Below, piece by piece: positions 10,579 through 19,021 of a stretch of 64,000 nt of DNA. The notes beneath the pieces are model-generated. The model was not told where the DNA came from. It did no database searches and worked only from the letters and a program-made list of their open reading frames with translations. How positions within the stretch are numbered: position 1 is the stretch's first letter; every line of letters starts with the position of its first letter. Source of the stretch: Kineosphaera limosa NBRC 100340 (GTDB lineage: Bacteria; Actinomycetota; Actinomycetes; Actinomycetales; Dermatophilaceae); assembly GCF_000298215.1 (NCBI RefSeq), contig NZ_BAHD01000019.1:1-64000 (forward strand). Direction: 5' to 3'. The translations under genes were made by a program, and so were the position numbers.

Positions 10579-12123
10579 ATGGCCAGTGTCACGACGATCG
10601 GCGTGCCCACGCAACGCCGCAACGGACACCGCAGCGAGACCAACGTCACGGAGCTGGACGGCACGGAGCTGAGCAGCGCAGAGCTGCCGGGCATCGAACT
10701 GAACGGCACCGCACTGAACGGCACCGCACTGAACGGCACCGAGCGCGCCGCACCGCGGTCGCCCGCCTACAACTACGCGTTCACCGAGTTGGTGGAGCCC
10801 GACTGGCGGCGCCTGCCCGGATGGCGCGACGTCAACTCCGCCGACTGGCGTTCGGCGCAGTGGCAGCGGGCGCACTGCGTGAAGAACGCCGCCCAGTTGC
10901 GCGCGGTCATGGGGGACCTGCTGCCCGAGTTCGTCTACGCCGATCTGGCCCGCGACCAGGCGCAGTACTCCTCGATGCAGATGCTGCTCACGCCGCAGAT
11001 CGTCAACACGATGGTGCCGCACGAGGCGCCCGACGCCGACTCGTTCTACGCCGACCCGGTGCGCCGCTACATGCTGCCGCTCGCCTCCGATCGGGCCGCG
11101 CAGTGGTCGAGCCACCCGCTGGCCTCCCGCGATTCGCTGCACGAGCACGAGATGTGGCAGGTGGAGGGGCTGACCCACCGCTATCCGACGAAGGTGCTCG
11201 CCGAGTTGACCTCGACGTGCCCGCAATACTGCGGGCACTGCACCCGCATGGACCTCGTCGGCACGTGGACGCCGCAGGTCACCAAGCTGAGGTTCATCGG
11301 CAAGCCCGTCGACCGGTACGCCGCGATGATGGAGTACCTGCAGGCCACCCCGGGGGTGCGCGATGTCGTGGTGTCCGGTGGCGACGTGGCCAACGTGCCG
11401 TGGCCCACCCTGGAGCACTTCGTCGACCGGCTGCTGACCATCGACTCGATCCGCGACATCCGGCTGGCCAGCAAGGGGCTGGTCGGGCTACCCCAGCATT
11501 GGCTGCAGCCGGCCGTCGTGGCCGGCATGGAGCGCCTGGCCCGCACGGCCCGGGAGCGTGGGGTGCAGATCGCGATCCACACCCACACGAACTCGGCACA
11601 GTCCGTGACGCCGCTCGTGGCGGAGGCGGCGCGCACGATGCTGCACACCGGCATCCGCGACGTGCGCAACCAGGGGGTGTTGCTCGCCGGCGTCAACGAC
11701 ACCCAGGAGCAGCTGCTCGACCTGTGCTTCGCGCTCCTGGACGGCGCCGGGATCATGCCCTACTACTTCTACCTGTGCGACATGATCCCGCACGCCGAGC
11801 ACTGGCGGCTGCCGGTGTCGAAGGCGCAGGATCTGCAGTTGTCGATCATGGGCTTCCTGCCCGGCTTCGCGACGCCGCGGATCGTCTGCGACGTGCCGTA
11901 CCTGGGCAAACAGTGGGTGCACCAGCTCGTTGACTACGACCGCGAGCGCGGCATCACCTCGTGGCAGAAGCGCTACCTGACGAGCATCGAGGCCGACAAC
12001 GGCGCCGAGCGCACGTACCGCTACTTCGACCCGGTGCAGTCGCTGCCCGAGTCGGGCCAGGGGTGGTGGCGCACTCAGTCCGCCGACCCCACCGGCGCAG
12101 TGTTGGAGTCCCTGACGTCGTGA
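10579..12123 (+). CDS. Lysine 2,3-aminomutase-like radical SAM enzyme (KamA family)
   Basis: A 514-aa radical SAM, PLP-dependent aminomutase. The cluster motif is CPQYCGHC (Cys214, Cys218, Cys221). The two Asp residues that hold the lysine side chain in clostridial KamA have counterparts here: Asp374 in AGVND and Asp401 in YLCDM. The PLP lysine is probably Lys444 in DVPYLGKQWV. These features favour conversion of L-lysine to L-beta-lysine over a glutamate or arginine mutase. ATG 10579 follows CAGGGGATT. The first 55 residues hold six five-residue repeats (ELDGT, ELSSA, ELPGI, ELNGT, ALNGT, ALNGT) outside the usual KamA domain. The stop overlaps the GTG of the Pls-type synthetase gene, so beta-lysine may be its substrate (inference). 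Confidence 0.85.
   Translation: MASVTTIGVPTQRRNGHRSETNVTELDGTELSSAELPGIELNGTALNGTALNGTERAAPRSPAYNYAFTELVEPDWRRLPGWRDVNSADWRSAQWQRAHCVKNAAQLRAVMGDLLPEFVYADLARDQAQYSSMQMLLTPQIVNTMVPHEAPDADSFYADPVRRYMLPLASDRAAQWSSHPLASRDSLHEHEMWQVEGLTHRYPTKVLAELTSTCPQYCGHCTRMDLVGTWTPQVTKLRFIGKPVDRYAAMMEYLQATPGVRDVVVSGGDVANVPWPTLEHFVDRLLTIDSIRDIRLASKGLVGLPQHWLQPAVVAGMERLARTARERGVQIAIHTHTNSAQSVTPLVAEAARTMLHTGIRDVRNQGVLLAGVNDTQEQLLDLCFALLDGAGIMPYYFYLCDMIPHAEHWRLPVSKAQDLQLSIMGFLPGFATPRIVCDVPYLGKQWVHQLVDYDRERGITSWQKRYLTSIEADNGAERTYRYFDPVQSLPESGQGWWRTQSADPTGAVLESLTS
10651..10743 (+). repeat. 15-bp coding repeats giving pentapeptide units
   Basis: Three near-perfect tandem copies of CTGAACGGCACCGCA start at 10699, 10714 and 10729. 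More diverged copies of the same 15-bp period lie upstream from about 10651. In frame they encode xLNGT-like pentapeptides at the N-terminus of the aminomutase. Confidence 0.75.
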
Positions 12124-15100
12124 ACAGCGTGCAGCACCTCCTCGCGGGCAGCCCCGCAACCGCAACCGATGAGCTCGGGGCTCCGGCGCTCACGCTGTCG
12201 GAGTTGTTCGCGGCCCAGGTGGCGGCGACCCCCGACCAGGTCGCCCTCGCGTGCGGTGAACGACGTTGGACCTATCGCGAAGTCGACGAGCTCAGCGCCC
12301 GACTGGCGGAGCGCTTGCGCGCCGCCGGAGCCACGCCCGGCACCTTCGTGGCGCTGCACTTCGAGCGCTCCGAGCGGCCGATCATCGCGATCCTGGCGTG
12401 CCTGAAGGCCGGGGCGGCCTATGTGCCGATCGATCCCAGCTACCCGGGCGAGCGCATCGAACACATCGTCACCGAGCTGACTCCGGTCGCGCGGCTCACC
12501 GAGTCGAGTCTCATCGAGCGGGCGGGCGGCGCCTACGGGCAGACACCGACGATCCTGCTCGACGACGGCTGGGAGCGGGACGGGACCCTCTGCCCACCGG
12601 GCCAGGCCGGGACGAACGAGGGGCCGGCCCCCGACGACTTGGCCTACGTCATCTACACCTCGGGCACGACGGGCCGACCCAAGGGCGTCATGGCCGAGCA
12701 CGCGCACGTCAGCCGCTACGTGGCGGCCTTCAACGAGGCGTGCGGCACGGGGCCCGACGACCGTGTGTACCAAGGGTTCTCGCTGAGCTTCGACGGCTCG
12801 GTCGAGGAGATCTGGATGGCGTTCTCCAACGGCTCGACGCTGGTCGTGCCGACCGCCGACGCCCCCCGGTTCGGCGCCGATCTGGGCACCTACCTCACCG
12901 AGTTGGGCGTCACGTACTTCTCGACGGTGCCGACGATGCTGGCCACCATCGACGCGGTGCCGAGCCTGCGCACGATCGTGCTGTCGGGAGAGGTGTGCCC
13001 GCCCGAACTCGTCAAACGGTGGGCGCGCGACGACCTGGCACTGCTCAACGTGTACGGCCCGACGGAGGCGACGGTCAACACGACGATCGCCCGGTGCCGG
13101 CCCGACCGGCCGGTGACGATCGGGCGCCCGCTGCGCGGCTACGACCTGCACATCGTCGACGAGAACTTGCGCATCGTGCCGCCCGGCACCAAGGGCGAAT
13201 TGCTGGTCAGCGGCCCCACCCTGGCTCGCGGCTATCTCAACCAACCGGAGTTGACCGCCAAGCAGTTCGTCGACGACCCGCCGATCGAGGGGGTGGCCCG
13301 CGCCTACCGCACGGGCGACCTCGTGCGCCTCGGCGAGGACGGCGACCTGGAGTTCTTCGGGCGCATCGACACGCAGGTCAAGATCCGCGGCTACCGTGTC
13401 GAGCTCGCCGAGATCGAGTCGGTGCTGCGCGAGGATCCGCAGGTCAAGGAGGCCGTGGTCCGCCTCGTCGGGCGCGACGGGCTGCAGCAGTTGGCCGCCT
13501 GCGTGACCCTGGTCGACGCGCTGACCGATGGGTCGCTGGACCGCGACCGGGTGCTGTCGCTGCTCGAGGGCCGCATGCCCGCCTACATGATTCCGGCCTA
13601 CCTCGACGTGATCGAGGTGCTGCCGCGCACGACGAGCGGCAAGGTCGACCGCAACGCCCTGCCGACGCCGCAGCACCCGCTCGTGCGGGTCGACCGCGAG
13701 GTCGTGGCCCCGCGCACCGCGTTGGAACAGCAGGTCGCCGGCGTGTGGCGCGAGGTGCTCGGAGTGCCCGACGTGTCGGTCACCGACGACTTCTTCCTCG
13801 ACCTCGGCGGCCACTCGCTGCTGGCGGCACGCGTGGCCACGGCGCTGCGCCCGCTCGTCGGTCGCGCGGTGGCGGTCCGCGACGTCTACGAGTCGCCCAC
13901 CCTGGAGGCGCTTGCCGAGCGCATCGAGAAGATGCCGCCGGTCGACACCGCGGCCGACACGGCCTCCGGTCTGGGGTCGCCCCCGCGCCGGTTCACGCGG
14001 ATCGCCTGGCCCCGACGAGCGCTGACGTACGTGTTGCAGGGCCTGTCGATGTACCTGCTCGCCGCGATGACCGTCACGCCGCTGGCCATCATCATCGTTG
14101 TATTGCGTGACTGGTACATCGGGGTCAACTCGCCGCTGCGGGCCGTGCTGCTCGTGCTGGCGGTGCTGCTGCTGACGTGGCCGGTCAACCTGACGATCGC
14201 GCTGAGCGCGAAGTGGCTGCTGATCGGCCGGTACAAACCGGGCGACTATCCGCTGTGGGGCTTCTTCTACTGGCGGTGGTGGCTCGTCAACCGGTTGCAG
14301 GCGTTCAGCGGCCTGAACGGCCTGACCGGCACCCCGCTGCAGGGCTTCGTCTTTCGACTCATGGGCGCCAAGGTCGGGCGCAACTGCACGATCGACACCG
14401 CCCAGTGCTCGGCGTGGGACCTGCTGCGGATCGGCGACGAGGTGAGCATCGGTGCCGACAGCCAGTTTCTCTGCTACCGCATCGAGGACGGCATGCTGCG
14501 CCTGGGCACCGTCGAGATCGGCGACCGGTGCTTCGTCGGGCTGCACTCCGCCCTCGGCCTCGGGGTGCGGATGGAGGACGACGCCCGGCTGGAGGACCAG
14601 TCGTTGCTGCCCGACGGCGCAGTCGTGCCCGCCGGTCAGGGGTGGGCCGGTTCGCCTGCGGCACCGGCGTCGGTGCCCCTGCCCGCGATCATCGGTGGAC
14701 GGCACCGCATGGCGCCGCGCCGCACGCGCAGCGGGCGTCCCCGTCGCACCGCGCGTCGCCTCTGGTTCGCACTGGTGCATCTGGTCGCCGCCTCGCTGCT
14801 GGCGAGCGTCACGGGGCTGCCCGGGCTGGGCTTCCTCGCGGCGCTGGTCATCGCGGCGATCCTGGGCGGCTGGGGCGGGCTGGGCGTCGCGCTGGTGCTG
14901 TCGGTGCCGCTCAGCGTGATCGTCTCGTGCCTGGTCGTGGCGGCCGCGCGCCGGCTCGTGCTGTGGCACATCGAGCCGGGCCGGTACCCGGTCGAGAGCT
15001 GGATCTACGTGCGCAAGTGGCTTTCCGACGGCATCATGGCGGCGAGCCGCGCGATGCTCCTACCGGTGTATACGACGCTCTACCTGCCGCCGTGGCTGCG

Positions 15101-16175
15101 GCTCATGGGCGCCAAGATCGGCCCCCGGGCCGAACTGTCGACGGTCTGGAAGTTCGCGCCCGAGCTCATCGAGGTCGGCGCGGAGAGCTTCTTCGCCGAC
15201 GGGTCGATCGTCGGCGGTCGCCGCGTGAACCGGGGCACGTTCCAGGTGTCGCGCAACCGCATCGGAGCCCGCAGCTTCGTCGGCAACGGCGCGGTGCTCC
15301 CCGTCGGCTCCAGCCTCGGTGACAACAGTTTGCTGGGGGTGCAGTCGATCCCGCCGCGCGAGCCCGCCACCACACCGGACGGCTCGGACTGGCTCGGCGC
15401 ACCCTCGTTCCGGCTCACGCACCGGCCCAAGGTCGGCAACTTCGACGACTCGGTGATGTTCCGCCCGACCCGGGGGCTCTACGCGCAGCGGGCCTTCATC
15501 GACGCCCTGCGCATCCTCATCCCGGGCTACATCGGGCTCACCTCGTTCGTCGCGTGGGTGGCGCTGATGTACCTGTCGTTCACGCGGCTGGGCATGTGGA
15601 CGACGTTCGCGCTGGCGCCGGTCATCTCGCTCGCCCTCTCGCTCTGCGCGATCTTCGTCGTCGCGCTGCTCAAGCTCGTGGTGATGCGCACGTTCCGGCC
15701 GGTCATCAAGCCGCTGTGGTGCCGGTACGTGTGGCTCAACGAGATGGTCAACGGCGCGTTCGAGTCGGTCGTGGCGCCGGCGCTGACGCCGTTCTTCGGC
15801 ACGCCGTTCGTGGCGCCGCTGCTGCGGCTCATGGGCTGCCGGATCGGGCGCCGCGCCTACATCGCCACCGCGCTGTTCTCGGAGTGGGACCTCGTGCGGC
15901 TCGGCGACGACGTGGCCCTCAACCACGGCGTCGTCGTGCAGAACCACCTCTTCGAGGATCGGGTGTTCAAGAGTTCGTACCTGGAGGTCGGGTCGCGGGT
16001 CTCCGTGGGCAACATGACGGTGCTGCTCTACGACTCGGTGATCGAGGACGACGTGAGCGTCGGGCCGCTGTCCCTGGTGATGAAGGGGGAGACGCTGGCC
16101 GCCGGCACCCGCTGGCACGGCATCCCCATCGCGCGCGACGACACCCCGGTGAGCGTGAGCGTGGACCGCCGTTGA
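12120..16175 (+). CDS. Pls/PosA-type membrane NRPS (poly-amino-acid synthetase)
   Basis: A 1351-aa protein with the architecture of epsilon-poly-lysine synthetase. The adenylation domain (about 20-515) has YTSGTTGRPKG at about 179, NVYGPTEATVN, YRTGDLVRLG and TSGKVDRNAL. A carrier domain follows with GGHSLLAAR, phosphopantetheine Ser566. Then come three pairs of membrane helices (about 635-700, 875-945, 1120-1190), each followed by a hexapeptide-repeat acyltransferase-like domain. There is no thioesterase. Pls enzymes polymerise one amino acid iteratively at the membrane. By eye the specificity pocket reads D-G-E-S-V-S-V-V-N; the acidic third position suits a basic side chain. GTG 12120 overlaps the aminomutase stop (GTGA), so translation is coupled. 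The likely product is a lysine or beta-lysine oligomer (inference). Confidence 0.85.
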   Translation: MNSVQHLLAGSPATATDELGAPALTLSELFAAQVAATPDQVALACGERRWTYREVDELSARLAERLRAAGATPGTFVALHFERSERPIIAILACLKAGAAYVPIDPSYPGERIEHIVTELTPVARLTESSLIERAGGAYGQTPTILLDDGWERDGTLCPPGQAGTNEGPAPDDLAYVIYTSGTTGRPKGVMAEHAHVSRYVAAFNEACGTGPDDRVYQGFSLSFDGSVEEIWMAFSNGSTLVVPTADAPRFGADLGTYLTELGVTYFSTVPTMLATIDAVPSLRTIVLSGEVCPPELVKRWARDDLALLNVYGPTEATVNTTIARCRPDRPVTIGRPLRGYDLHIVDENLRIVPPGTKGELLVSGPTLARGYLNQPELTAKQFVDDPPIEGVARAYRTGDLVRLGEDGDLEFFGRIDTQVKIRGYRVELAEIESVLREDPQVKEAVVRLVGRDGLQQLAACVTLVDALTDGSLDRDRVLSLLEGRMPAYMIPAYLDVIEVLPRTTSGKVDRNALPTPQHPLVRVDREVVAPRTALEQQVAGVWREVLGVPDVSVTDDFFLDLGGHSLLAARVATALRPLVGRAVAVRDVYESPTLEALAERIEKMPPVDTAADTASGLGSPPRRFTRIAWPRRALTYVLQGLSMYLLAAMTVTPLAIIIVVLRDWYIGVNSPLRAVLLVLAVLLLTWPVNLTIALSAKWLLIGRYKPGDYPLWGFFYWRWWLVNRLQAFSGLNGLTGTPLQGFVFRLMGAKVGRNCTIDTAQCSAWDLLRIGDEVSIGADSQFLCYRIEDGMLRLGTVEIGDRCFVGLHSALGLGVRMEDDARLEDQSLLPDGAVVPAGQGWAGSPAAPASVPLPAIIGGRHRMAPRRTRSGRPRRTARRLWFALVHLVAASLLASVTGLPGLGFLAALVIAAILGGWGGLGVALVLSVPLSVIVSCLVVAAARRLVLWHIEPGRYPVESWIYVRKWLSDGIMAASRAMLLPVYTTLYLPPWLRLMGAKIGPRAELSTVWKFAPELIEVGAESFFADGSIVGGRRVNRGTFQVSRNRIGARSFVGNGAVLPVGSSLGDNSLLGVQSIPPREPATTPDGSDWLGAPSFRLTHRPKVGNFDDSVMFRPTRGLYAQRAFIDALRILIPGYIGLTSFVAWVALMYLSFTRLGMWTTFALAPVISLALSLCAIFVVALLKLVVMRTFRPVIKPLWCRYVWLNEMVNGAFESVVAPALTPFFGTPFVAPLLRLMGCRIGRRAYIATALFSEWDLVRLGDDVALNHGVVVQNHLFEDRVFKSSYLEVGSRVSVGNMTVLLYDSVIEDDVSVGPLSLVMKGETLAAGTRWHGIPIARDDTPVSVSVDRR

Positions 16176-17326
16176 GCAGTTCGCGCATCGCGGCCCTCGA
16201 CCTGGCCCGGGGGCTGGCGCTGATCGGCATGCTGGCGGTGCATGTCTTTCCGACGTTCGACGCCGACGGGTCGGCCTCGCTGGCGACGCAGGTCGCCGCG
16301 GGCCGCTCGTCGGCGACGTTCGCGATGATGGCGGGCGTCGGGCTGGCGCTGGTCACGGGCGGCTCGACCCCGGTGCGTGGTGCGGAGTTGGCGCGGTCGT
16401 GGGCGTCAATCCTCGTGCGGGCGGCGCTGATCGCCCTGATCGGCCTGATGCTGGGGTACGTGACGGCCTGGGGTGGGCTGGAGGTCTACGTCATCCTGCC
16501 GTTCTACGCGGTGATGTTCGTGCTGGTGCTGCCCTGGCTGCGGGTGCCGCCGGCGGGGCTCTTCGTGGCCGCGGGGGTCGTGGCGTTAACATCCACGTTC
16601 GCCATCGAATGGGTGACCGGCGGGGTGCCGCTGCTCGATCCGGCTCCGGACCCGGACCCCACGCTCGGTGACGCCCTCGCGCACCCGATCGGGCTGCCGC
16701 TCTACCTGCTGACCGGAGGGTCGTATCCGGCGTTGGTGTGGGTGTGTTTCCTGCTCGCCGGCCTGGGTCTGGGGCGCCTGGACCTGCGCTCGCCGCGGCT
16801 GGCCGCGTGGTGCGTCGGGGTCGGGAGCGTCGTGGCGGTCGGCGCCTGGACGATCTCGCAGATTCTGCTCTACCCGCTCGGGGGGCTGCGGCACCTGCGC
16901 CGTGCGGCCCCGGAGGACTGGTCGGACGAGCGGCTGTTGTGGGCGCCCCATCCGGGGGAGTTCGACACCTGGTGGTGGTACGCGCTGCGGGCGCCACACT
17001 CGGACGCGCCGCTGGCGCTGTGCATCGCGATGGGTTCGGCGGTGGCGATCTTCGGTGTCACGCTGCTGGCCGCCCGGTCGGCGGCGGTGCTGCGGGTGCT
17101 CTCGCCCTTGTCGGCCGCAGGCAGCATGGTTCTCACGCTCTACTGCGCGCACATCGTCGTGCTCGCGACCGGCCTGTTCGACGACAGCCCCGGACTGCAG
17201 TTCGTCATGCTGCTCGCCGCGATGCTCGCGTTCGCGGCCTGGTGGCGCCCACGGCATCGTCGCGGTCCGCTGGAGGCGCTCATCGCCATCCCGGTCGCCG
17301 CGGTCCGCCGCCGGGGTACTCCCTGA
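16172..17326 (+). CDS. Membrane acyltransferase-like protein (HGSNAT/DUF418-type)
   Basis: A 384-aa polytopic membrane protein of eight or more helices. It opens with RIAALDLARGLALIGMLAVH, the signature start of the heparan-alpha-glucosaminide N-acetyltransferase catalytic (DUF1624)/DUF418 group, which moves acyl groups across the membrane. The start is taken as TTG 16172, overlapping the Pls stop as TTGA. No ATG fits, and an earlier start would run through the Pls C-terminus. Its coupling to the Pls-type synthetase suggests it acylates, exports or otherwise tailors that product (inference). A C-terminal Arg-rich tail faces the cytoplasm. Confidence 0.75.
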   Translation: MSSSRIAALDLARGLALIGMLAVHVFPTFDADGSASLATQVAAGRSSATFAMMAGVGLALVTGGSTPVRGAELARSWASILVRAALIALIGLMLGYVTAWGGLEVYVILPFYAVMFVLVLPWLRVPPAGLFVAAGVVALTSTFAIEWVTGGVPLLDPAPDPDPTLGDALAHPIGLPLYLLTGGSYPALVWVCFLLAGLGLGRLDLRSPRLAAWCVGVGSVVAVGAWTISQILLYPLGGLRHLRRAAPEDWSDERLLWAPHPGEFDTWWWYALRAPHSDAPLALCIAMGSAVAIFGVTLLAARSAAVLRVLSPLSAAGSMVLTLYCAHIVVLATGLFDDSPGLQFVMLLAAMLAFAAWWRPRHRRGPLEALIAIPVAAVRRRGTP

Positions 17327-17428: not shown

Positions 17429-18364
17429 ATGGCCCGTCACTCAGACGCCGGCGAGCACCTCGCCCACCCGATCGGGACGCAGCACACCCCAGTCATCGAG
17501 CCGATCACGTACCGATACAACCGGCCGGTTGCCTTCTACACGCTGGCCACGGCGATCCCGTGGGCCTTGTGGTTGGGCGCCGCCTACCTGAGTCACCTCC
17601 CCGACCAGAGCACGGCGGTGCGCCTCGGGACGGTCGTACTGGGGTTGACGGGCCTGGCGGCGCCCGTGGGGGTCGTGTGGTGGTTGGTGCGCGACAAGCC
17701 GGAGCTGCGCGCGGACCTGCGGCGGCGGCTGTTTGTGCGCCGGGGGGTGCCGGGGTTCTATCTGCTCTGCGCGGTCGGTTTGTTGCCGGCGAGCCTGCTG
17801 GTGGCGCAGGCGATCTCGCTGCTGTTCGGGTACAGCCCGGAGCAGTTCGAGCTGCGTGGCGGCTTCAGCTTTACGTCCGGGCTGCTGCCGGTGTGGCTGA
17901 TTCTGGTGCTGGCGCCGATCCTCGAAGAGATCGCCTGGCACGGCTACGGCACCGACTCGCTGGTGACGCGGATGCGGCTGATCACGGCGTCGCTGGTGTT
18001 CACGGTGATCTGGACCGTGTGGCACCTGCCGCTGGCCCTCATCGAGGGCTACTACCACAGCGAGGTCGTGCAGGAAGGGTGGCTGCACGCGCTGAACTTC
18101 CCGCTGAGCATGATCCCGTTCGTGCTGCTCATGAACTGGCTCTATTTCCGCACGGGGCGCAGCATCTCGGTGACGATCGTCTTTCACCTGGTCGCCAATT
18201 TCGTCAACGAGATCTTCTTGACCCATCCCGATTCCAAGCTCATCCAGACGGTCTTGCTGCTGGTGCTGACGGCGGTGATCGTGATGCGGGAGCGGGAGTT
18301 GTTCTTCACCCCACCGCCGCGCCGCGTCTCGACCCGGGCCGGAGCCGGGGCGGCGAGCGCGTGA
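17429..18364 (+). CDS. CPBP-family intramembrane metalloprotease
   Basis: A 311-aa membrane protein with about eight helices and the CPBP (CAAX protease/Abi) motifs. The EExxxR-type motif appears as LEEIAWHGYG, with Trp-His where Arg-Gly is usual. A second motif is WHLPLAL and a third FHLVANFVNE. ATG 17429 follows GAGAGGAAAGACC. CPBP proteins are membrane proteases or immunity-type proteins; none of the local genes looks like a bacteriocin precursor. It is followed after 12 nt by a TetR gene, making a probable autoregulated pair. Confidence 0.85.
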   Translation: MARHSDAGEHLAHPIGTQHTPVIEPITYRYNRPVAFYTLATAIPWALWLGAAYLSHLPDQSTAVRLGTVVLGLTGLAAPVGVVWWLVRDKPELRADLRRRLFVRRGVPGFYLLCAVGLLPASLLVAQAISLLFGYSPEQFELRGGFSFTSGLLPVWLILVLAPILEEIAWHGYGTDSLVTRMRLITASLVFTVIWTVWHLPLALIEGYYHSEVVQEGWLHALNFPLSMIPFVLLMNWLYFRTGRSISVTIVFHLVANFVNEIFLTHPDSKLIQTVLLLVLTAVIVMRERELFFTPPPRRVSTRAGAGAASA

Positions 18365-18376
18365 CACAGTGAGGCC

Positions 18377-19021
18377 ATGACGACGGGGCGCGAGCGGCCG
18401 GTGTTGAGCCGGGAGCGGATCGTCGCGGCGGCGTTGGCGATGGTCGACGAGCAGGGCGTCGAGGCGCTGTCAATGCGCAAGCTGGGACAGCGGCTCGGGG
18501 TCGACCCGATGGCGGTCTACCACTACGTGCCGAACAAGGCGGCGCTGTTCGACGGCATCGTGGAGCACGTGTGGCAGGGTGTGCGGCTGCCGGCGCCGAC
18601 CGAGGGCGAGACGTGGCAGGGCGTGCTGCAGGCGGTGTTCACCACGTTCCGCGCGCGCCTCTTGGAACATCCGCACGCGGTGGCCCTCATCGGCACTCGC
18701 CCGACGACGACCCCGGCGATGCTCACCCTCATCGACGCCAGCTTGGGCCGCCTGGCCGCCGCGGGACTGCCCGGGCAACGGGCGATGCCGCTCATCGACT
18801 GCCTGTCGGCCTTCACGATCGGCAAGGTGCTGGCCGAGGTCAGCGACCCCTCCACCTCCGGGGAGAGCGTGCCGCAGGCCGTCGAATCAGCCGTGGCCGG
18901 CATGACGCACCAGACCCACCCCCACCTGCTGGCCACCCTCATGGCGGGGTACGCCTTCACCCCCGAGGAGCAGTTCGAAACCGGCCTGCGCGCCCTCATC
19001 CAGGGCTGGCCCACCGCCTGA
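18377..19021 (+). CDS. TetR-family regulator with tetracycline-repressor-like C-terminus
   Basis: A 214-aa protein. Its HTH (about residues 14-60: LGQRLGVDPMAVYHYVPNKA and following) matches the TetR(Class)-like group rather than AcrR, and the remainder fits the TetR_C_1 ligand domain. It lies 12 nt after the CPBP gene. The two TCTAC-N3-GTAGA palindromes before that gene are the probable operator. The inducer is unknown. Confidence 0.88.
   Translation: MTTGRERPVLSRERIVAAALAMVDEQGVEALSMRKLGQRLGVDPMAVYHYVPNKAALFDGIVEHVWQGVRLPAPTEGETWQGVLQAVFTTFRARLLEHPHAVALIGTRPTTTPAMLTLIDASLGRLAAAGLPGQRAMPLIDCLSAFTIGKVLAEVSDPSTSGESVPQAVESAVAGMTHQTHPHLLATLMAGYAFTPEEQFETGLRALIQGWPTA

Follow-up and report, generated by a model that had tools for sequence, protein, structure and literature searches.

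A coupled aminomutase, Pls-type synthetase and membrane acyltransferase operon in Kineosphaera limosa as a candidate ε-poly-L-β-lysine locus

The DNA analyzed here (the window) comprises positions 1 to 64,000 of contig NZ_BAHD01000019.1 of Kineosphaera limosa NBRC 100340. Between positions 10579 and 17326 it carries three genes on the + strand, encoding a lysine 2,3-aminomutase-like protein (KamA), a Pls-type polyamino acid synthetase and a membrane protein with acyltransferase motifs, with consecutive overlaps of four bases each (Table 1). A preliminary description of this DNA had claimed a coupled three-gene operon with GTGA and TTGA overlaps, and the reading frames and both overlaps were found again when the sequence was re-read. 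The overlaps suggest translational coupling. A Shine-Dalgarno-like AGGGGA lies 5' of the ATG at 10579, and the GC contents of the genes (kamA 0.69, synthetase 0.71, acyltransferase 0.73) differ little from the mean for the window, 0.70. The operon very probably makes ε-poly-L-β-lysine or an oligomer of it. A β-lysine homopolymer pathway had been proposed earlier, and it is favored here because of the code of the adenylation (A) domain, the clade that the synthetase shares with a characterized enzyme, the repeated linkage of KamA to such synthetases and the lysine-degradation setting of KamA relatives.

Table 1. Features of the operon and its downstream neighbors, in positions of the window
Feature	Position	Strand	Length and basis
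kamA-like radical SAM lysine 2,3-aminomutase	10579..12123 (ATG to TGA)	+	514 aa; alignment to 2a5h, conserved residues
Pls-type polyamino acid synthetase	12120..16175 (GTG to TGA)	+	1351 aa; TIGR02353, Pfam, code, tree, hydropathy
TmAT-superfamily membrane acyltransferase (HGSNAT_cat/DUF418)	16172..17326 (TTG to TGA)	+	384 aa; PF07786, motifs
GTGA overlap, kamA stop/synthetase start	12120..12123	+	sequence
TTGA overlap, synthetase stop/acyltransferase start	16172..16175	+	sequence
CPBP-family membrane protein gene	17429..18364	+	PF02517; NF041656 196 bits, below cut-off 425
TetR-family regulator gene	18377..19021	+	Pfam TetR_N, TetR_C_1

The A-PCP-(TM-C)x3 layout of Pls (PCP, peptidyl carrier protein; TM, transmembrane) claimed for the synthetase was recovered. 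AMP-binding (PF00501, residues 31-374), PP-binding (PF00550, 538-603) and the Pls/PosA terminal domain (TIGR02353, 640-1338, model positions 2-695 of 695; 579 bits, above the cut-off of 423) were all matched, in a numbering that begins one codon before the GTG. Three hydrophobic blocks (641-697, 880-951 and 1132-1196) could each hold a helix pair, as judged by hydropathy. The PCP motif LGGHS is found at 562, and the terminal domain contains hexapeptide-type repeats (Hexapep_2, 34.7 bits).

At what we take to be the code positions of GrsA, the aligned A domain reads DGESVSVVNK. Streptomyces had been named as the source of β-lysine homopolymers made by Pls-like enzymes; the producer named in the excerpt of PMC10522769 is instead Streptoalloteichus hindustanus, whose ε-poly-L-β-lysine synthetase was described by Yamanaka in 2022 (via excerpts of PMC10522769 and PMC9606270). 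The published code of this enzyme is DGESISVVNK, and the second code place is given as Ala for lysine and Phe for diaminopropionate (Dap) and diaminobutyrate (Dab) (PMC10522769, excerpt). The S. hindustanus DSM 44523 synthetase (locus L117) was the first row when named genomes were scanned with the window synthetase, at 57% identity over nearly the whole length (residues 24-1351). Its code as read equals that of the window at 10/10 positions; both agree with the published string at 9/10, with V for I at position 5. The preliminary description had proposed comparing the A domain with characterized enzymes, and the comparison gives the window the β-lysine-type code of S. hindustanus, not the α-lysine code. 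In the synthetase tree, the 16 rows with DGES-type codes, window included, form one clade (100/99) that was recovered in all of the 200 bootstrap trees. The window synthetase groups with that of Actinoplanes (98/93) within a six-row actinobacterial subclade holding L117 (100/100). S. hindustanus also has a short A-PCP frame of 599 aa (L140, 7968-9764) that lacks a terminal domain, reads DGESVSVVNK and shares 58% identity with the A-PCP part of the window synthetase.

KamA was found in the flanks of 10 of the 15 other DGES-code synthetases and of 0/88 with other codes (Fisher p = 1.3e-10), counts in which the rows are related rather than independent and which leave out the window itself. The flanks extend to about 9 kb, but where a contig ends they may be as short as a few bases; at least 3 kb was available on both sides in 13/15 DGES rows and 70/76 DAE rows. 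Part of the sample comes from the order of K. limosa, where 73 of 248 genomes had a synthetase over the cut-off and 76 regions were fetched, 72 of them with a readable A domain. Two of these 72 loci read DFEYNGTVTK, one DFEALSVVTK and one DAESIGTIIK, and KamA was present in the fetched stretch of none of the 72. The remaining 68 read DAESIGTVVK, which favors an alternative in which the synthetase polymerizes L-α-lysine and the aminomutase, placed beside it by accident, serves lysine breakdown or another pathway; nevertheless, the window code is not the α code. Of the 79 named-genome loci, chosen by likeness to the window synthetase, 24 had both a complete code and a terminal domain: 15 of DGES type (10 with KamA) and nine others (0 with KamA). 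Seven further loci from class and genus searches were added to the pooled count. For want of a full code, L087, L103, L105, L113, L129, L131, L138 and L180 were left out; KamA adjoins L180. If L140, L142 and L146, which are A-only or partial, are counted, the result is 11/18 DGE-code loci against 0/88; otherwise it is 10/15 against 0/88. Upstream of KamA and Pls in Pseudonocardia xinjiangensis (L118) are genes of aspartokinase type (AA_kinase with ACT) and of the dihydrodipicolinate synthase (DHDPS) family, and Citricoccus (L144) has a DHDPS-family gene upstream of Pls. Aspartokinase and DHDPS enzymes feed lysine synthesis, and the DHDPS family also includes other aldolases.

Residues 77-443 of the window KamA align to L-lysine 2,3-aminomutase 2a5h with an E-value of 1e-40; E-values across this alignment and the NCBIfam searches (1e-40 to 1e-173) exclude chance matches. 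The radical S-adenosylmethionine (SAM) motif CxxxCxxC lies at C214/C218/C221, and R223, D401/D438 and K444 presumably correspond to the carboxylate-, ε-amino- and pyridoxal phosphate (PLP)-binding residues of lysine 2,3-aminomutase, K444 being one residue nearer the Asp than its 2a5h counterpart. The lysine-binding Asp pair had been placed at 374 and 401. D401 holds, but D374 does not: the pair in 2a5h, which we take to be D293 and D330, aligns with D401 and D438. D374 belongs to a GVND loop, and 35/42 KamA rows have D at this position. D401 is D in 42/42 rows and D438 in 41/42. C214, C218, C221, R223, D401, D438 and K444 are all kept in 13/13 Pls-linked KamA rows.

Mapped onto a tree of 42 KamA rows, linkage to Pls requires five changes of state, with a long-branch warning for the distant rows. 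The linkage of KamA to Pls recurs, on this tree, in several separate KamA lineages, which argues against an accidental position. The overlap of the kamA and synthetase genes argues against it as well. Distant KamA-type genes (28-31% to the window KamA), in which the key lysine-mutase residues are kept, lie beside DGE-code synthetases at L128, L125, L146 and L180, in hosts from Planctomycetota, Bacteroidota and Pseudomonadota.

Window-type KamA was found in 21 of the 58 genomes searched as relatives, that of the window included, with the other copies 64-70% identical. Kdd adjoins KamA in 19/20 of the other relatives' loci, and KamD or KamE also lies within the fetched stretch in 14/20; reference copies of all three score above the NCBIfam equivalog cut-offs. 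The exception is L039 (G024), where an A domain of nonribosomal peptide synthetase (NRPS) type, 31% identical to the window synthetase, lies about 2 kb from KamA. The relatives of the window KamA thus probably act in lysine degradation, and since they adjoin the lysine-degradation gene kdd, L-lysine is the likely substrate of the window enzyme. In the tree, the window KamA falls inside a 29-row actinobacterial branch (100/100) in which 22 rows are Kdd-linked and five Pls-linked. It shares the catalytic residues of the actinobacterial KamA enzymes found with Kdd and KamDE but clusters with Pls-linked rows from Actinoplanes and Pseudonocardia (99/96) and not with the copies of its own family that adjoin Kdd.

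That KamA relatives mostly sit with lysine-degradation genes is also what would be expected if the aminomutase served lysine breakdown beside an α-lysine synthetase. Against this, KamD was not found in the genome of the window, an empty result that needs a control, and no search was made there for Kdd or KamE; the same KamD query does detect KamD in the relatives' loci by tblastn. Weighing these points with the code, the overlap and the recurrent linkage, we consider the α-lysine alternative very improbable.

Several observations count against a β-lysine product. The A-domain code alone would permit promiscuous loading of L-α-lysine. In five of the 15 other DGES-code loci the fetched flanks contain no KamA, L124 being near a contig end; each of these five genomes holds a KamA-family match elsewhere (32-69%). 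One of them is S. hindustanus DSM 44523, whose synthetase gene has no KamA within 8 kb. The close KamA of this genome (69%) is encoded on a different contig, together with KamD, KamE and Kdd; the only other match, a distant homologue about 34 kb from the synthetase on its own contig, is without the D438 equivalent. This layout does not fit the description of an aminomutase gene adjacent to the S. hindustanus synthetase (PMC10522769, excerpt). An acyltransferase homologue is likewise absent from those 8 kb, whereas the window has both partners coupled to the synthetase. Moreover, the window KamA misses the NCBIfam KamA cut-offs (TIGR03820, 155 against 525 bits; TIGR00238, 149.5 against 199), as do three scanned relatives. 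Because both cut-offs are missed, the enzyme is not filed under either family; judged by sequence, it is a divergent KamA.

Under the β-lysine assignment, KamA would shift the α-amino group of L-lysine to the β carbon. The A domain would then adenylate L-β-lysine and load it onto the carrier domain, and the membrane terminal domain would link carboxyl to ε-amino groups by isopeptide bonds, the chain being built at the membrane. The acyltransferase would use cytosolic acyl-CoA to acylate an acceptor on the outer side of the membrane, and the emerging polymer is a candidate for that acceptor. Substrate, polymer, export and an antibiotic role are all predictions made from sequence. A short oligo-β-lysine joined to another molecule, rather than a free homopolymer, could also be imagined, as streptothricins bear β-lysine oligomers (PMC9606270) and a coupled acyltransferase could signal a conjugate. 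Nevertheless, there is no further NRPS among the annotated neighbors, which span roughly kb 1-23 of the window. The streptothricin chain is extended by a stand-alone A domain (PMC9606270), whereas the window enzyme has a full terminal domain, and ε-poly-lysine is not made without that domain (PMC10522769, excerpt). We regard a streptothricin-like conjugate as very improbable.

The third protein scored 46.6 bits against PF07786 (cut-off 22) and 24.8 against DUF418 (cut-off 23.6). The TmAT superfamily (HGSNAT, AT3, DUF418/YeiB) is described by the motifs DxxR and FxxxxG and an Arg in transmembrane helix 3 (TMH3), with an AT3-type His in DxxRx10H, and its members move acyl groups from acyl-CoA to outside acceptors (PMC12423673, excerpt). 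The window protein has D10xxR13x10H24, F50xxxxG55, R83 and Y324, which are invariant in the five synthetase-linked sequences, window included. It is probably a transmembrane acyltransferase, set apart within the superfamily by its coupling to a polyamino acid synthetase. An AlphaFold2 model from only two sequences (window and L144) had a predicted local distance difference test (pLDDT) score of 39.

A homologue lies directly 3' of the synthetase on the same strand in 6/104 loci: with DGES codes in the window and L144, with DAESIGTIIK in L050 and with DFEY-type codes in L052, L240 and L241. L051 is left out of this count, as its acyltransferase adjoins the synthetase on the opposite strand. Because the acyltransferase is found beside three kinds of code, it does not follow the monomer. 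L240 and L241 are from the genus of K. limosa and pair the same kind of acyltransferase with a DFEYMGTVTK synthetase. The 3' slot holds an M1 peptidase in 71/104 loci and never both proteins (p = 0.0007, rows not independent). By code, the peptidase fills the slot in 67/76 DAE, 4/11 DFE and 0/16 DGES loci, a contrast that is partly one of lineage, as the queries were actinobacterial and many DGES rows come from other phyla. The M1 neighbors are presumably PldII, judging from position and length. The pldII gene is translationally coupled to pls, and its product degrades ε-poly-lysine and is needed for self-protection (PMC9223678, excerpt). The window synthetase thus resembles the ε-poly-L-lysine Pls of Streptomyces albulus type in its A-PCP-terminal domain architecture and TIGR02353 match, but its operon has neither the α-lysine code nor an M1 peptidase in the 3' slot.

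Homologues of the acyltransferase (E 1e-20) occur in 112/248 genomes of the order, that of the window included, and only three of the other 111 (G100, G112 and G045; ranks 3, 5 and 14) adjoin a synthetase of the order survey. A family dedicated to Pls is therefore not supported. These numbers, together with the presence of the acyltransferase in the 3' slot of just 2/16 DGES-code loci, window included, suit a chance linkage, in which the protein is an acyltransferase or transporter of general use in the envelope and does not modify the polymer. On the other side stand the same-strand 3' placement beside three code kinds, never together with M1, and its occurrence twice beside another code within the genus. 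Chance linkage is accordingly a serious contender, to which we give somewhat less than an even chance. An acylated product is a guess: the motifs fit, but members of the family are often encoded where no synthetase gene is near. Rather unlikely is the more specific idea that the acyltransferase caps amino groups of nascent or exported poly-β-lysine outside the cell. Capping would replace a PldII-type peptidase as self-protection because a β-amino-acid chain would resist such a peptidase. We know of no acylated polycation of this kind. Among the titles and abstract openings listed in searches of open-licence literature there was no KamA-Pls-acyltransferase operon and no acylated poly-β-lysine.

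Among the 296 genomes of the class searched at E 1e-85, no DGES-type A domain was found outside the genome of the window (G000); the five genomes that passed all have DFE codes, with no KamA in the fetched stretch. DGES-type codes with linked KamA also occur in Bacteroidota, Planctomycetota, Pseudomonadota and Acidobacteriota, some of the sources being metagenome assemblies. Pls is reported from coryneform bacteria in PMC8117764, and β-lysine and aminomutase do not occur in the main text of that paper. Two other draft genomes of the genus gave no match to the window KamA, and their readable synthetases have the codes DFEYMGTVTK or DAESIGTVVK (fragment L228 has no readable code). Genus-wide vertical inheritance of the KamA-Pls pair is not supported by these drafts, and because they lack a KamA match and show other codes, KamA and Pls were probably acquired together. 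The genome of the window holds a second Pls (L041, G000:C137, 6505-10425) with the code DAESIGTVVK and an M1 peptidase beside it. As L041 carries the α-lysine code, the window operon is not the α-lysine locus of this genome, and the strain may make two different polycations. Two further codes, neither of them given in the excerpts, were read, DFECLSAVTK at L236 (G506), where an aspartokinase-like gene lies about 1.4 kb from the synthetase, and DFEALSVVTK at L049 (G187).

Upstream of kamA is a divergent gene with a BPL_N domain. The CPBP gene begins about 100 bases downstream of the acyltransferase gene on the same strand, and 12 bases separate it from the TetR gene that follows; the two genes might belong to the operon.

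A polymer of this class is already known; the novelty lies in how tightly the genes are coupled, in the host lineage and in a partner enzyme with a possible role in modifying the polymer. ε-Poly-β-lysine is tied to one producer in the cited papers, as excerpted, and the operon would offer a second, tightly coupled source. A DGES-type code with a linked KamA could be used to pick out likely ε-poly-β-lysine producers. In addition, the presence of M1 peptidases beside most α-code synthetases and none of the β-code ones found, with an acyltransferase occupying the same slot in a few loci, raises the testable question of how each polymer is tolerated by the cell that makes it.

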